DNA of 64,000 nt, taken from the NCBI RefSeq assembly GCF_021172045.1, contig NZ_CP087164.1:310001-374000 (forward strand). Direction: 5' to 3'. The position numbers and the translations under genes were made by a program. The stretch comes from Capillimicrobium parvum (lineage in GTDB: Bacteria; Actinomycetota; Thermoleophilia; Solirubrobacterales; Solirubrobacteraceae). The notes beneath the pieces were generated by a model. It was not told where the DNA came from and did no database searches. It saw only the letters and a list, made by a program, of their open reading frames with translations. Each line of letters begins with the position of its first letter. Position 1 is the stretch's first letter. This document shows positions 43,805-53,265 of the stretch, one piece after another.

Positions 43805-44767
43805 TCACACCAAGCGGGCCGCAGCCAATCTGCGGTAGAGCGAGCTCATCGTCCCCCACGGCTCGCCGCCGCGCCCCGACTCGCGCAGCGCTTCGGCCAC
43901 TTCGTCCTCGTCCACGATCCGGCCCGTCGTCCACGCCTCGGAGTCCTCGAGTGACGGGGCGTCGAGGAAGTCGCGTACGGTCGGAAGCGCGTTGCCGTGG
44001 GCGTCGAGGAGCAGGAGGTGGCCTTCGCCTTCGAGCATCTGTAGGCGTGCGTCGGGCATCCGGGCGGCGATCAGGACGCTGTTGACGGGCGGCGTCAGCG
44101 GGTCGTCGGCGCCGCAGAGCACGAGGGTGGGAACGTTGAGCTCCGGCAGCCAGCGCGCGCTCGACCACGAGCTCATCGTGTAGAGCTGGCCGGTGTAGCC
44201 CAGCAGCGACGGGGGCGCGGCGAGCCGATCGCGGCGGTGCCGGCGGACGAACTCGGGGTCGTGGGCCTGGCCGCCCGCGATCCACGGGATCGTCAACGAG
44301 TAGAACGTCGCCGACCAGTACCGCAGCGGCGTGAGCATGAGCATCAGCGAGGACGTCCGTCCCGGGATCCCGCCCCAGCCCGGCGTGGTCGCGGCGAGGA
44401 CGAGCCGCCGGATGCGCTGCGGCGCCTGGCGCGCCAGTTGCTGGGCCAGCGCTCCGCCGAACGAGTAGCCGACGACGTCGACGCGCTCCTGCTCGCCGAG
44501 TCGGTCGAGCAGCGTCTCGACCATGGCGGCCAGCGACGCCATGGGAAGCGGGCCGATCGGCAGCTCCGAGTGCCCGGTTCCGGGGGCGTCGAACGAGATG
44601 ATCCGACGGTCCGGCAGTGCGCGTTCGAACGGGCGCCACATCGCGGTGTGGGTGCCCAGGCCGTTGAGCAGCAGGATCGGATCGCCATGGCCGGTCTCCC
44701 GCACGCGCAGGCGCATGCCGGCGATCTCGAGGTCGCACTCTTGGTCTGGCGCGGGCGCGGCCGTCAT
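43805..44767 (-). CDS. PHA depolymerase-like alpha/beta hydrolase
   Basis: A 320-residue hydrolase with the layout of Pseudomonas intracellular PhaZ: ILLLNGLGTHTAMWRPFERALPDRRIISFDAPGTGHSELP, the nucleophile Ser102 in VVGYSFGGALAQQLARQAPQRIRRLVLAATTPG, LVLCGADDPLTPPVNSVLIAARMPDARL (Asp) and GEGHLLLLD (His). It probably releases hydroxyalkanoic acids from stored polyester. The ATG overlaps the GNAT stop (ATGA), placing it in the operon behind the PHA synthase. Confidence 0.85.
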   Translation of the reverse strand: MTAAPAPDQECDLEIAGMRLRVRETGHGDPILLLNGLGTHTAMWRPFERALPDRRIISFDAPGTGHSELPIGPLPMASLAAMVETLLDRLGEQERVDVVGYSFGGALAQQLARQAPQRIRRLVLAATTPGWGGIPGRTSSLMLMLTPLRYWSATFYSLTIPWIAGGQAHDPEFVRRHRRDRLAAPPSLLGYTGQLYTMSSWSSARWLPELNVPTLVLCGADDPLTPPVNSVLIAARMPDARLQMLEGEGHLLLLDAHGNALPTVRDFLDAPSLEDSEAWTTGRIVDEDEVAEALRESGRGGEPWGTMSSLYRRLAAARLV

Positions 44768-45297
44768 CGGGCGGTGTCGGCCAGGCCGGTGGTGAGCATC
44801 TCCGCCCAGGCGTCGTCGGCGATGTGGGCCATGCTGACGATGTCGTGCATCCGCCCGTCCGGTTCCTGCAGGTGGTCGACGAGCAGCGCCTCGGGACGGA
44901 AGCCGATCTCCGAGAACATGTTGATCGTCGACTGGTGGGTCGCGGGCACGTCCACGGTGAACTTGCGCCAGCCGTGGCGCAGCCCCTCGGCGAGCGCCAG
45001 GCGCGCCATCTCGCGGCCGAGGCCGCGACGGCGGGCGTCGTGGGCGACGATGAGCCGTAGATCGGCGACGTGCGACGACCGCCCGATGCCGGGCCACAAT
45101 GCCGCGAACGCGACGATGCGGCCGCCCTCTTCGTCGACCGCGACCAATCGGACCGCGATCTCGTCGTCGAGCCAGCGCTCGAGGACCTGCGGCTCCTGTA
45201 CGTCGTCCTTGAGGAAGTTGCGGTCGGCTTCGGGGATCTCCGCGAAGAACCGCGCAAGCTCCGTGCGGTCCTGCGGGGTCAGGGGTCTGGTGTTCAC
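44764..45297 (-). CDS. GNAT-family acetyltransferase
   Basis: A 177-residue N-acetyltransferase: VRLVAVDEEGGRIVAFAALWPG, the acetyl-CoA loop DARRRGLGREMARLALAEG (Q/RxxGxG/A type) and TINMFSEIGFRPEALLVDHL. It lies between phaC and phaZ-like genes with GTGA and ATGA overlaps on both sides, so all three are made together. The acetyl acceptor is unknown; a protein of the granule or a small molecule is possible. The GTG start is fixed by the overlap. Confidence 0.88.
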   Translation of the reverse strand: MNTRPLTPQDRTELARFFAEIPEADRNFLKDDVQEPQVLERWLDDEIAVRLVAVDEEGGRIVAFAALWPGIGRSSHVADLRLIVAHDARRRGLGREMARLALAEGLRHGWRKFTVDVPATHQSTINMFSEIGFRPEALLVDHLQEPDGRMHDIVSMAHIADDAWAEMLTTGLADTAR

Positions 45298-46367
45298 TGA
45301 TGCGGCTCCCTGGTATCGGAGTGCCGGCGCAGCCAGTCGACCACGCCGGGGAACGTGACGTGGACGGCCTTGCGGCTGCCGGCCAGTCCCGCATGCCCAG
45401 CCGGGACCTCGAAGAGCTCGAACTCCGGCACGTCGACCAGCGAGCCGAGCGGGAGAGCGGCCGGGGGCGGCACGATGTCGTCGCGCATCGCGACGACGCT
45501 CAGCATCGGCACGTCGATGTTGGCGAGATCGACGCGCCGGCCCGCCAGACGAAGCGTGCCGTTCGCGAACCCGTTGTCGTACAGCCAGCCCTTCAGAACC
45601 TGGCGGAACAGGGCGCCGGGGACCGGCACGTGCGTGCTCGCCCACCTCGCCATCGCCTGGTAGCTGGAGAGGAACTCGTCGCTCCAGAGGTTCTCCCACA
45701 GGTTCGCGTACTGGACGAGCTCGACCGTCGGCTTGCGGATGCGAAAGAACGAGCTGACGATGTGCGGCGGGACGTTGCCGGTCCAGTCGACCATCGACTC
45801 GGGGTCGATCTCGCCGTCGCGCAGGGCCTCCACGAGGCCGCCCATCTGCGAGAAGTCGACGGGCGTCGCGAAGATGACGAGGTTGCGCAGCGGGATCGAC
45901 ACCTGCCCGCCGACGGCGACCAGCGCAAAGCAGCCGCCCATGCAGTACCCGAGCAGCGTCACGTCGTCGCACTGCGACTCGCGCAGAAGTGCCCGCACCG
46001 CGCGGGGGAGGTAGCGCACGAGGTACGTCTCGAGCGTGTTCTGCGCGTCGCCCTCGTCGGCCGCGCCCCAGTCCAGGATGTAGACGTCGAAGCCGGCATC
46101 GCGCAGCGCCCCTGCGAGCGTGCTCTTCTCGTGGAGGTCGAGGATGTGCGGCAGGCTGACGAGCCCGATGAACATCAGCACCGGCGGCCCCATCGTCACG
46201 CGATCGCTGCGAAGCCGCCAGAGGCGCGCCTTGCCCTGGCTCCACACGAGCTCCCGGGGGGATGCATGTTCCGGCGCCCACTCCGTACCCGAGGCGTACT
46301 TGATCCCGTTGCGGGCGCGGACGACGTTGCGCTCGACCTCGCGCCGGATGTCGTACGCGATGCTCAT
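45294..46367 (-). CDS. phaC: Polyhydroxyalkanoate synthase, class III-like
   Basis: A 357-residue synthase that polymerises hydroxyacyl-CoA. The lipase-like box is GYCMGG (140-145) with catalytic Cys142; VYILDWGAADEGDAQNTLETYL is the DWG region, MRDDIVPPPAALPLG carries the Asp and VPAGHAGL the His. The short length (~355) and lack of the ~200-residue N-terminal extension of class I mark it as class III or IV, which need a partner (PhaE or PhaR). No standard PhaE is next to it. The ATG overlaps the stop of the small gene before it. Confidence 0.92.
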   Translation of the reverse strand: MSIAYDIRREVERNVVRARNGIKYASGTEWAPEHASPRELVWSQGKARLWRLRSDRVTMGPPVLMFIGLVSLPHILDLHEKSTLAGALRDAGFDVYILDWGAADEGDAQNTLETYLVRYLPRAVRALLRESQCDDVTLLGYCMGGCFALVAVGGQVSIPLRNLVIFATPVDFSQMGGLVEALRDGEIDPESMVDWTGNVPPHIVSSFFRIRKPTVELVQYANLWENLWSDEFLSSYQAMARWASTHVPVPGALFRQVLKGWLYDNGFANGTLRLAGRRVDLANIDVPMLSVVAMRDDIVPPPAALPLGSLVDVPEFELFEVPAGHAGLAGSRKAVHVTFPGVVDWLRRHSDTREPHQ

Positions 46368-47374: not shown

Positions 47375-47848
47375 ATGACCGATTGGGCTGGGCAGGCGAG
47401 TGCCGGCGCCGAGCAGTGGATGACGGCGCAGCAGGAGTGGTGGCGCACCGTCCTCGACGCGGGCGCAGGTCAGCCAGGGCCGGTCCCGCCGCAGTGGCAG
47501 CGTGAGGCGATCGAGACGTGGCGGGCGGCCGCGCATCGCGTCGCCGACGCGCAGGCCGACGTCCTGCTGCAGGGTCTCGGCTCAGCCAAGCCGAGCCAGG
47601 CCGAGGACCTCCTCGCGCAATGGACCGCGACACAGCGCCGGCTCTGGGAGGGCTGGATCGCGGCCGTGGGAGGCGCCGCCGGTGGTGGCGCCCCGCCCCC
47701 GGCCGCGGCGACCCCGCCGCCCGGCTTCCAAGAGGCGGGACAGCGTCTCGTGCAGGCACTTCAGGAGTCGGCTGAGCAGCTCGTCAAGGCCCAGGAGGAA
47801 TGGGCTCGCACGCTGCGCCGTCGCCCAGATGACGGCGGCGCGTCGTGA
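47375..47848 (+). CDS. Trp-rich helical protein, candidate PHA synthase partner (PhaE analogue)
   Basis: A 157-residue protein with about ten Trp. MTDWAGQASAGAEQWMTAQQEWWRTVLDAG and TATQRRLWEGWIAAVGGAAGG recall the aromatic amphipathic helices of PhaE subunits of class III synthases. A Gly/Ala/Pro-rich linker leads to a C-terminal helix (GFQEAGQRLVQALQESAEQLVKAQEEWARTLRR) of phasin type. TACTGT eight bases before the ATG suggests a leaderless transcript. The next gene overlaps (GTGA) and shares the motif LW[EQ]GW[IL]A. Function is inferred from the locus. Confidence 0.65.
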   Translation: MTDWAGQASAGAEQWMTAQQEWWRTVLDAGAGQPGPVPPQWQREAIETWRAAAHRVADAQADVLLQGLGSAKPSQAEDLLAQWTATQRRLWEGWIAAVGGAAGGGAPPPAAATPPPGFQEAGQRLVQALQESAEQLVKAQEEWARTLRRRPDDGGAS

Positions 47849-48216
47849 CGCCCGGTCCGTTCGAGCTCTGGCAGCGCGCGGCAGATGCGGTGGTCGGCGC
47901 GCACGTCGACTTCTGGGCGGCAATGGTGGAGGCGGCGATCAGCGCCCCGGCGCGCGCCGGTGCCCCGGGGGCCGCACATGCCGAAGTGGCGCTGCGGCGG
48001 ATGACCGACGCCCACCGCGACCTGTGGCAGGGGTGGCTGGCCACGGCGACAGGCGCTCGCCGCTCGCACGGCCGACGCGACGCCGGCGACGCCGGCACGG
48101 CCATGCTCGACGCGCTGCGCGACGGTGCGCGGCAGCTGATCGACAACCAGGCGGACTGGGCGCGGCGCTGGAACGCCGCCGGTCCGCCGCCTCCCGGGCC
48201 GTACGCCCGTCCCTGA
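47845..48216 (+). CDS. Trp-rich helical protein, paralogue of the preceding gene
   Basis: A 123-residue protein: MTPGPFELWQRAADAVVGAH, VDFWAAMVEAAI, MTDAHRDLWQGWLATATGARR and LRDGARQLIDNQADWARRWNA. It shares LW[EQ]GW[IL]A and the final DxARxW helix with the gene before it, suggesting duplication. The GTG start overlaps the previous stop. Both may form a complex with the PHA synthase or bind granules. It converges on the patatin gene with 2 bases between. Confidence 0.65.
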   Translation: MTPGPFELWQRAADAVVGAHVDFWAAMVEAAISAPARAGAPGAAHAEVALRRMTDAHRDLWQGWLATATGARRSHGRRDAGDAGTAMLDALRDGARQLIDNQADWARRWNAAGPPPPGPYARP

Positions 48217-49767: not shown

Positions 49768-50142
49768 ATGGGCGGCCCCATGCAGAATCCGTGGGAGCTC
49801 CAGCTCGACGCGCTGGGCGAGTACATCCGCGCCCAGCGCCGCCACGCGAACCTCTCGCTGCGGCAGTTGGCGGCGCAGACCCAGATCTCGAACGCCTACC
49901 TGAGCCAGCTCGAGCGCGGCATGCACGAGCCGTCGGTACGCGTGTTGCGCTCGATCGCCGGCGCGCTGGACGTGTCGGTCGAGACCATGCTGGCCCAGGC
50001 GGGCCTGTTCGAGGACGAGGACCCGTTGACGCCCGGTGAGAGGGGCGCGGCCGAGGCGGCCATCCGCGCCGACCCGCGCTTGACCGACGAGAAGAAGGAG
50101 GCGTTGCTCGCCGTGTATCGGTCCCTGGTTGACGGGTCATGA
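49768..50142 (+). CDS. XRE-family regulator
   Basis: A 124-residue DNA-binding protein with one Cro/CI-type HTH (about residues 15-70: YIRAQRRHANLSLRQLAAQTQISNAYLSQLERGMHEPSVRVLRSIAGALDVS) and a C-terminal helical tail. It lies 16 bases after the phasin and overlaps the acyl-CoA ligase (ATGA). It probably controls the storage genes, in the manner of PhaR/PhaQ-type local regulators, though those belong to other families. A second ATG four codons on (49780) is an equally good start. Confidence 0.85.
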   Translation: MGGPMQNPWELQLDALGEYIRAQRRHANLSLRQLAAQTQISNAYLSQLERGMHEPSVRVLRSIAGALDVSVETMLAQAGLFEDEDPLTPGERGAAEAAIRADPRLTDEKKEALLAVYRSLVDGS

Positions 50143-51842
50143 CGCCGGCCGATCACCGCCGGCGGCCCTGGCTCGCACAGTACGAGCCACGCGTGCCGGC
50201 GACCTTCACGCCCGAGTGCCGCACGACGAACGAACTGTTCGAGCGTGGCGCACTCGCCCAGCCCGACACGCCCGCGTTCCTGTATTTCGGCACGCAGATC
50301 TCCCGAGAGCGTGCCGCGGGCGACGCGCGCGCCCTGGCTGCGGCACTCCGCGGCGAGCTCGGCCTACGGCCGGGCGATCGCGTCGCCGTGATGCTGCAGA
50401 ACATCCCGCAGCTCCCGATCGCGTTTCGCGCCGTGTGGCTGGCCGGCGGCATCGTCACGCCGGTCAACCCGATGAACAAGCGCCGGGAGCTGCACCACCA
50501 GCTCAACGACGCCGGCGTGCGTATCGCGGTCTGCCTGGAGTCGCTGTACTGGACGGTCGACGACGTGCGCGGCGAAACGCCCCTCGAGCACATCGTCACC
50601 TGCTCCGAGCTCGACTACCTCGATGACCAGCCGGCCGCGCTCGACGGACATGAGCGCATCGACTGCCCCGGCGGGTTGCCGTTCATCGACCTCGTCGAGC
50701 GTCACGCAGCGGCAGCGCATCTGACGCCCGTGACGCCGCAGCCCTCCGACCCCGCGCTGCTCACCTACACGTCCGGCACCACCGGCCTGCCGAAGGGCGC
50801 GATCAACACCCACGCCAACGTCGCGCACAACGCCGAGCTGATCACCCGGTGGTTCGACCTCGGCGCCGGCGACGTCACCATCGCCCTCGCCCCGATGTTC
50901 CACATCACCGGCATCGTCTGCCACCTCGCCAGCTCGGCCTACTCCGGCACGCCGCTGCTGATGCTCTACCGGTTCGAGCCGGGCGAGATGCTGCGCCACA
51001 TCGAGCGCTGGCGCGCCACCTGGTCGATCGGGCCGCTCACCGCCTACATCGCCATGCTCAACCACCCGGACTTCCAGAGTCGCGATCTGTCCTCGCTGAC
51101 GAAGGTCGCCGCCGGCGGCGCGCCCGTGTACCCAGCGGTGGTCGAGGCGTGGGAGGCGGCGACGGGCGTCTACATCCACAACGCGTACGGCATGACCGAG
51201 ACATCCGCCCCGACGCACCTGACGCCGTTCCGCGCTCACGCGCCGGTCGACGCCGATAGCGGCGCGCTCTCGATGGGCATCCCCGGCCCGAACGTCGACT
51301 CGACGATCGTCAGCATCGACGACGGGAGCGAGCTTGCGCCGGGCGAGATCGGCGAGATCGTGTCTCGCGGCCCGATGATCACGCCCGGGTACTGGAATCG
51401 GCCGGAGGAGACCGAGAAGGCGATCGTCGACGGCTGGTTGCACAGCGGCGACGTCGGCAAGCGGGACCAGGACGGTTGGTTCTACCTCGTCGACCGCATC
51501 AAGGACATGATCACGGTCTCCGGCTACAAGGTCTGGCCGCGCGACGTCGAGGACGTCCTCTACCAGCACCCCGCGGTGCTCGAGGCGAGCGTCGTCGGCG
51601 TGCCTGACGACTATCGCGGCGAGACCGTCCGTGCGTACGTCGCGCTCAAGCCGGGAGCGCACGCGACGCCCGACGAGCTGATCGCCCATTGCCGTGAGCT
51701 CCTGGCGGTCTACAAGGCTCCGCGCGAGGTGGAGCTCGTCGCCGAGATCCCCAAGACCCTGACCGGCAAGGCGCTGCGGCGCGAGCTGCGCGACAGGGCG
51801 CGCGCCGAGGCCTCTTCCGCCGGCGGGTTCCCGGACGTATAG
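50139..51842 (+). CDS. Long-chain acyl-CoA ligase (AMP-forming)
   Basis: A 567-residue ANL-superfamily enzyme. The P-loop-like motif LLTYTSGTTGLPKGAINTHANV, the YGMTETSAPTHLT motif, GWLHSGDVGKRDQDGWFYLVDRIKDMITVSGYKVWPRDVE (hinge), and the catalytic Lys in PKTLTGKALRREL are present. It activates a fatty or hydroxy-fatty acid to the CoA ester, supplying the WS/DGAT enzyme encoded next or recycling depolymerase products. The ATG overlaps the regulator stop. Confidence 0.9.
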   Translation: MTPADHRRRPWLAQYEPRVPATFTPECRTTNELFERGALAQPDTPAFLYFGTQISRERAAGDARALAAALRGELGLRPGDRVAVMLQNIPQLPIAFRAVWLAGGIVTPVNPMNKRRELHHQLNDAGVRIAVCLESLYWTVDDVRGETPLEHIVTCSELDYLDDQPAALDGHERIDCPGGLPFIDLVERHAAAAHLTPVTPQPSDPALLTYTSGTTGLPKGAINTHANVAHNAELITRWFDLGAGDVTIALAPMFHITGIVCHLASSAYSGTPLLMLYRFEPGEMLRHIERWRATWSIGPLTAYIAMLNHPDFQSRDLSSLTKVAAGGAPVYPAVVEAWEAATGVYIHNAYGMTETSAPTHLTPFRAHAPVDADSGALSMGIPGPNVDSTIVSIDDGSELAPGEIGEIVSRGPMITPGYWNRPEETEKAIVDGWLHSGDVGKRDQDGWFYLVDRIKDMITVSGYKVWPRDVEDVLYQHPAVLEASVVGVPDDYRGETVRAYVALKPGAHATPDELIAHCRELLAVYKAPREVELVAEIPKTLTGKALRRELRDRARAEASSAGGFPDV

Positions 51843-51870
51843 TCGCCCCCAAGGGAGGAGGCAAGGGCTC

Positions 51871-53265
51871 ATGGCCTCATTCGAGACGTTGTCGGCGTTC
51901 GACGCCCAGTTCATCTACTGGGACAGCGACCGCACGCCGATGAACATGGGGAACATCTGCATCTTCGAGGGCGGCCGGCTCTTCGACGAGCACGGCACGT
52001 TCCGCCTCGACGACGTCCGCCGGGCCATCGAGTCGCGCCTGCACCTCGTCCCGCGCTATCGCAAGAAGATCGTCGAGGTCCCGGGCGGCCTCGGGCATCC
52101 GGTGCTCGCCGACGACCCGGACTTCGACATCGCCAACCACGTCAAGCACGTCGAGCTCGACCCGCCGGGCGACGACGAGCAGCTCAAGCAGGTCTACTCG
52201 CGCCTGCACGAGGGGATGCTCGACCACTCCCGCCCGCTGTGGGAGACGACCTTCATCACGGGCCTGGAAGGCGGGCGCGTCGGGATGGTGCAGAAGATCC
52301 ACCATGCGCCGTTCGACGGGGCGAGCACGGTCGACGTCCTGTACCTCATGTTCGACTCGACGCCGGAGCACTCCGACGGGGCCGAGGCACCGCCCTGGAA
52401 GCCGGAGCCGGCTCCCGACCCATGGGTGCTGATGGGCGCCAAGTGGGGCGAGCAGGTCTCGACGATGTGGAACACGCTGCTCGGCGCGCAGCCGTACGTG
52501 CCGACCGGAGCGCCCCAACCGCTCGGCGAGCTCGCCGAGAGCATGGGCGTGCTCGGGCAGATGCCCAAGCCGCCGGCCACGTCGTTGAACCAGTCGGTCG
52601 GGCCGCGGCGGCGCTATGACTGGGTCCACACGTCGCTCGGCGAGCTCAAGAAGGCGCGCGCTCTCGTGCCCGGGTCGACCGTCAACGACGTGATGCTCAC
52701 CGTGGTGGCGGGTGGCCTGCGAGAGCTTCTCGCGTCCCGTGGCGAGGATGTCGACGACCTCGTGCTCCAGGCCATGGTGCCGGTGTCGCTGCGCACCGAC
52801 GCCGAGAAGGCTTCGGCGGTCGGCAACCAGGTCACCGGCTTCTCCGCGCCGCTGCCGCTGTGCGAGCCCGACGGACGGGCCCGTCTCGCCCGCATCCACG
52901 CCTCGACGAAGGAGCTCAAGGAGGGCCGCCAGGCCCAGGCGATCCGGGCGATGACCCAGGCCGCCGACTTCGCCCCGCCCGCGCTCATGGCCGCCGCGGG
53001 GCGCCTCGCGGTCGAGCAGAGCTCGTTCATGAACCTCACGATCACGAACGTCCCGGGGCCCAGGCACGAGCTGTACCTCCTCGGGGCGAAGATGCTCGAG
53101 CTCAACCCGATGTGCCCGATCGGCAACCAGCTCACGCTGAACGTCGCCGTCGAGTCCTACGTCGACAAGGTGAGCATCGGCCTGGTCGCCGACGCCGAGT
53201 GCCACCCGGACCTTCCGGTGCTCAAGCAGGGCATCGAGCGGTCGCTGGCCGAGCTGACGGCGTAG
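51871..53265 (+). CDS. WS/DGAT wax ester synthase / diacylglycerol acyltransferase
   Basis: A 464-residue acyltransferase. The catalytic motif HHxxxDG is HHAPFDG (144-150) in KIHHAPFDGASTVDVL; further motifs are FDAQFIYWDSDRTPMNMG, the C-terminal NDVMLTVVAGGLRELL and NLTITNVPGPRHELYLLGAK. It makes triacylglycerol or wax esters from acyl-CoA. AAGGGAGGAGG before the ATG is a strong ribosome binding site, and TATAGT overlapping the ligase stop with TTCCGC 17 bases upstream could be a promoter of its own. Confidence 0.93.
   Translation: MASFETLSAFDAQFIYWDSDRTPMNMGNICIFEGGRLFDEHGTFRLDDVRRAIESRLHLVPRYRKKIVEVPGGLGHPVLADDPDFDIANHVKHVELDPPGDDEQLKQVYSRLHEGMLDHSRPLWETTFITGLEGGRVGMVQKIHHAPFDGASTVDVLYLMFDSTPEHSDGAEAPPWKPEPAPDPWVLMGAKWGEQVSTMWNTLLGAQPYVPTGAPQPLGELAESMGVLGQMPKPPATSLNQSVGPRRRYDWVHTSLGELKKARALVPGSTVNDVMLTVVAGGLRELLASRGEDVDDLVLQAMVPVSLRTDAEKASAVGNQVTGFSAPLPLCEPDGRARLARIHASTKELKEGRQAQAIRAMTQAADFAPPALMAAAGRLAVEQSSFMNLTITNVPGPRHELYLLGAKMLELNPMCPIGNQLTLNVAVESYVDKVSIGLVADAECHPDLPVLKQGIERSLAELTA

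Follow-up and report, generated by a model that had tools for sequence, protein, structure and literature searches.

Class III PHA synthases combine PhaC with PhaE (PF09712, TIGR01834), a protein of 350-450 aa encoded directly upstream of phaC, and class IV enzymes with PhaR (TIGR02132), a small helical partner subunit encoded together with phaC. Haloarchaeal PhaE is short (about 20 kDa) yet indispensable, and that of Hfx. mediterranei is without the bacterial 'PhaE box' (PMC2939530), so that a small PhaE is not unprecedented; the haloarchaeal genes are arranged in the order phaP-phaE-phaC (PMC7137286). In the open-access literature on truncated PhaE, we found no report of a bacterial PhaE consisting of the C-terminal domain only. 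Here, we compared these systems with a PHA storage cluster of Capillimicrobium parvum, contained in a 64,000-nucleotide stretch of its genome (the window). The cluster comprises four minus-strand genes in the order P4-phaC-GNAT-hydrolase and two plus-strand genes, P1 and P2, followed by genes for a patatin-type protein, P5, and an XRE-type regulator.

The phaC gene (45294..46367, minus strand) encodes a class III-like PHA synthase of 357 aa, the length given in an earlier note on this DNA, which holds if translation starts at 46367. Its assignment is based on a match to TIGR01836 (E 8e-68; 228.9 bits, below the 365.3-bit cut-off) and on a Cys-Asp-His triad (C142/D296/H325) that is invariant in an alignment with relatives, together with a GYCMGG box of the GxCxGG type. 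It is the one PhaC-type gene of the genome, a single 5.95-Mb contig. A search of genome contigs with PhaC as query retrieved merely three distant loci, which were set aside. PhaC reads AMARWASTHVP where the PhaC of genome G149 has the class III signature RMEKWIFDSPD. The start of phaC overlaps the end of P4 (46364..46663, minus strand) as ATGA, with the junction GCGATGAGC, and its stop overlaps, as GTGA, a reading frame for a GNAT-type acetyltransferase (44764..45300, minus strand), which in turn overlaps (ATGA) a reading frame for an alpha/beta hydrolase (43805..44767, minus strand), a candidate intracellular PHA depolymerase. These 4-base overlaps suggest that P4, phaC, and the acetyltransferase and hydrolase genes form one translationally coupled unit. 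By eye, a similar acetyltransferase is encoded downstream of phaC in loci L051, L053, and L054, and L051 also has a hydrolase at the same place.

Profile searches, hhalign, and synteny identified P4 (99 aa) as a short PhaE-type subunit corresponding to the PhaE C-terminal domain only. A P4-family profile built without P4 recovered P4 at E 1.3e-13 among the 578 six-frame ORFs of the window, with no second convincing ORF in this set, and matched PhaE C-termini at E 3e-11. Likewise, hhalign of the family without P4 against the PhaE C-terminus gave a probability of 96.8 (E 2.4e-10, 77 columns), indicating homology of P4 to this domain. Among 399 class genomes, PF09712 detected one full PhaE, that of G149, and several partial matches; those in G065, G298, G184, and G356 proved to be short ORFs directly upstream of phaC that cover just profile positions 223-311, and P4 is their equivalent here. 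The P4 homologue of L050 matched both PhaR (TIGR02132, E 3.5e-6 over 84 residues) and PhaE (TIGR01834, E 2e-5), and a sister set of short proteins encoded upstream of more distant phaC genes matched both P4 (hhalign probability 96.6) and PhaE. Of 31 class loci, 30 had a P4-type member immediately before phaC, the exception being L044; this count of unique loci, tallied from the search output, is for phaC loci of the class whose E-value was at most 3e-45 and whose upstream sequence was long enough. Many of these 31 loci had served to train the combined profile, so that the independent evidence is the subset matched by the PhaE-only C-terminal profile plus the cross-hits between the two sets. 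In G065 (L055), two P4-type mini-PhaE paralogues flank phaC (612-929 and 1985-2311, both plus strand). In L002 (6359-7997, plus strand), from a Dehalococcoidales MAG, a PhaE-like region is spread over two ORFs before phaC (one of 363 aa, followed by a C-terminal one of 194 aa), representing either a natural split or a frameshift.

P4 is divergent within its family: with the PhaE profile alone, it was matched at just E 0.007, over columns 306-344, and hmmscan with PF09712 gave no match. Its sole PHA-related curated matches were TIGR01837 (E 0.024) and TIGR02132 (E 0.19), and no curated model, including PF09712 and TIGR01834, passed its cut-off on P4; the top family member for PF09712, from L055, scored 22.2 of 25.7 bits. 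Like PhaE, P4 is encoded directly upstream of phaC, and its family corresponds to the last ~80 residues of PhaE, including the N[LM]PT-R/S-x-[DE][VL] turn and the following coiled coil. Unlike PhaE, it is without the N-terminal and middle regions (PhaE columns ~1-260 have no counterpart in its 99 aa, and it is not a full-length PhaE), while modules of the N-terminal type are carried here by separate proteins, likewise below curated cut-offs. P4 resembles PhaR in being a small helical protein encoded with phaC, and in the TIGR02132 match of its L050 homologue, but has about half the length of PhaR. Haloarchaeal PhaE and P4 are both much reduced, P4 being the smaller (about 11 kDa) and keeping the C-terminal region that PF09712 matches. 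An AlphaFold model of P4 is all-helical at low confidence (pLDDT 54), and a search of solved structures with the G149 PhaE gave no PhaE sequence match. The earlier note had found neither PhaE nor PhaR evident beside phaC, a premise overturned by P4 immediately upstream of it. A true phaE elsewhere in the genome, which that note said would refute its idea, was not detected: PF09712 found P1 alone (E 0.56) and TIGR02132 nothing. However, both models miss P4 and are thus blind to such short forms.

P1 (47375..47848, plus strand; 157 aa, 10 Trp) and P2 (47845..48216, plus strand; 123 aa, 6 Trp) are Trp-rich, and their genes overlap as GTGA. Codon statistics favour both over the overlapping antisense frames, with a gene signal weaker than that of the neighbours. 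In Smith-Waterman comparison, P1 and P2 scored 121 against 40 +/- 7.5 for shuffled sequences, none of which reached 121 in 2000 trials, and by this alignment the two proteins are homologous to each other. Both contain LW[EQ]GW[IL]A, which occurs in no further six-frame ORF of the window. The two overlapping genes and the shared motif described in the earlier note were thus borne out. The first half of P1 is possibly a second copy of the module in its second half, the internal repeat being just suggestive (score reached by 131 of 2000 shuffles). The AlphaFold model of P1 is all helix, again with low confidence (pLDDT 57).

To compare the pair with PhaE, we searched the complete set of 578 six-frame window ORFs with a profile of 31 PhaE proteins (30 obtained via PF09712 from the phylum of locus L004 and one from G149). 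P1 ranked first (E 4e-8), and none of 2840 shuffles of P1 equalled its score. The match lies in the second half of P1 and covers profile columns 14-71, corresponding to the first ~60 residues of PhaE, a region with the motif W-x(3)-Q-[RK]-x(2)-W-x(2)-W. The resemblance to PhaE claimed before is therefore real for P1, but confined to one PhaE end and below the curated cut-off: P1 reached 12.6 of 25.7 bits with PF09712, in the N-terminal region alone, and the PhaE C-terminal profile matched neither P1 nor P2. By itself, P2 hardly matches the PhaE profile, and it is connected to the N-terminal Trp module only via P1 and the G149 modules; with a module model built only from G149 it scored 18.4 bits, a value reached by 0 of 2935 shuffles. 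Among phasin models, P1 showed matches below cut-off to TIGR01841 (E 2e-4, 21.8 of 30.2 bits) and Phasin_2 (E 6e-4, 20.3 of 24.9 bits), while P2 matched neither; P2 did weakly match Lambda_CIII and Milton, which was dismissed as chance. As in phasins (PF09361, TIGR01841), P1 and P2 are small, helical, and encoded in a PHA cluster, but they differ in their Trp-richness, in the lack of any phasin match for P2, and in missing the curated cut-offs. The best reading of P1 and P2 is that of granule-binding proteins of the phasin type, with the PhaE N-terminal helical module as their building block, the phasin assignment being the most likely one on the basis of these sub-threshold matches.

The module is rare. 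In searches of the 399 class genomes and of 396 phylum genomes alike, G000 and G149 were the only ones with strong matches to a P1/P2/G149 module model. The class sample, in which the genomes whose phaC is closest were represented, had P1/P2-like modules in only one other genome. With P1 alone as query, 146 family genomes yielded chance-level matches only, and a search of plasmids found none. In G149, the module opens a canonical PhaE and is present in two copies in a separate 200-aa protein encoded just before phaE; the P1/P2 motif is common to two proteins of this phaEC operon. G713 has a weaker match, in a protein of 109 aa whose gene immediately precedes that of a full-length PhaE-like protein. 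These small module proteins beside phaEC recall the haloarchaeal phaP-phaE-phaC order (PMC7137286). With a P4-type gene immediately before phaC in 30 of 31 loci, and P1/P2-like modules in only one other class genome, P4, as a PhaE of which only the C-terminal domain is left, can be taken with near certainty as the conserved partner of PhaC.

We consider it probable that PhaC and P4 are the two subunits of a class III/IV-like PHA synthase, with P1 and P2 as duplicated Trp-rich helical granule proteins. P4 and PhaC would be made from coupled cistrons, as their overlap indicates, and, on the analogy of PhaE and PhaR, P4 would bind PhaC and activate it. P1 and P2 would be a duplicated pair based on a module that forms the PhaE N-terminus and, by sequence similarity, resembles phasins. 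Most likely, they coat the growing granule via amphipathic Trp-bearing helices, and hence would work near the synthase rather than as a required subunit.

A less likely arrangement is a naturally split PhaE. In this reading, the C-terminal domain (P4) and the N-terminal module (P1, P2, or both) would come together again on PhaC, on the surface of the granule, and jointly do the job of the one-chain protein. Both PhaE ends indeed occur in this locus on different small proteins (columns 14-71 in P1, 306-344 in P4), and the sole full PhaE found in the class, that of G149, has both in one chain. However, P1 and P2 are encoded on the opposite strand, outside the P4-phaC operon; the relatives whose phaC is closest, among them G079 with its single-contig genome, encode P4 without a P1/P2-like module; and the PhaE middle (about columns 75-270) is without counterpart among the window ORFs. 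We regard it as very improbable that P1/P2 are a required PhaC partner in place of PhaE or PhaR, as the earlier note had proposed from the position of the genes near phaC and the PhaE-like Trp helix of P1: the genome indeed has no full-length PhaE or PhaR by PF09712 or TIGR02132, but phaC has its own conserved, overlapping PhaE-type gene in P4, and the pair is missing from nearly all relatives with the same phaC, so that the replacement inference fails. What that note observed was largely right and is partly confirmed, its missing-partner premise being wrong, and its interpretation is partly supported. That P1/P2 are unrelated helical proteins resembling PhaE only in Trp/Ala/Gln composition would fit the sub-threshold curated matches of P1 and the bare PhaE-profile match of P2, but is the least probable reading of all, given that shuffled P1 never equals the real score, that the motif is common to P1, P2, and two G149 phaEC-operon proteins, and that the neighbourhood is a PHA cluster.

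Besides P1 and P2, the cluster encodes further small proteins that are probably phasins, as judged by weak family matches and gene neighbourhood. P3 (46821..47120, minus strand; 99 aa, with a possible GTG start at about 47088) is a small helical protein without a curated family match; its homologues recur near phaC in seven related loci (L054, L060, L062, L063, L064, L065, and L067), and an L054 homologue matches Phasin_2 at E 0.03. P5 (49461..49751, plus strand; 96 aa) gave a sub-threshold Phasin_2 match (E 0.04) and is followed by the gene for the XRE-type regulator (49780-50142); in L058, a P5 homologue adjoins the same type of regulator. The patatin-type protein encoded between the P1/P2 pair and P5 (48222-49217, minus strand) may be a second mobilising enzyme, since the Synechocystis patatin-domain protein Slr0060 has been proposed as an intracellular PHB depolymerase (PMC7203880). 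After the PHA cluster, genes for an AMP-dependent ligase and a wax ester synthase/DGAT-type protein, judged by eye, follow at 50139-53265 (plus strand), and two kinds of lipid storage may thus be neighbours here.

If the 11-kDa C-terminal domain alone can serve PhaC, the activating part of PhaE is thereby located, and a minimal PhaC-P4 pair would make the mode of action of PhaE and PhaR directly testable. The same would account for genome surveys in which such loci are scored as being without a partner subunit.
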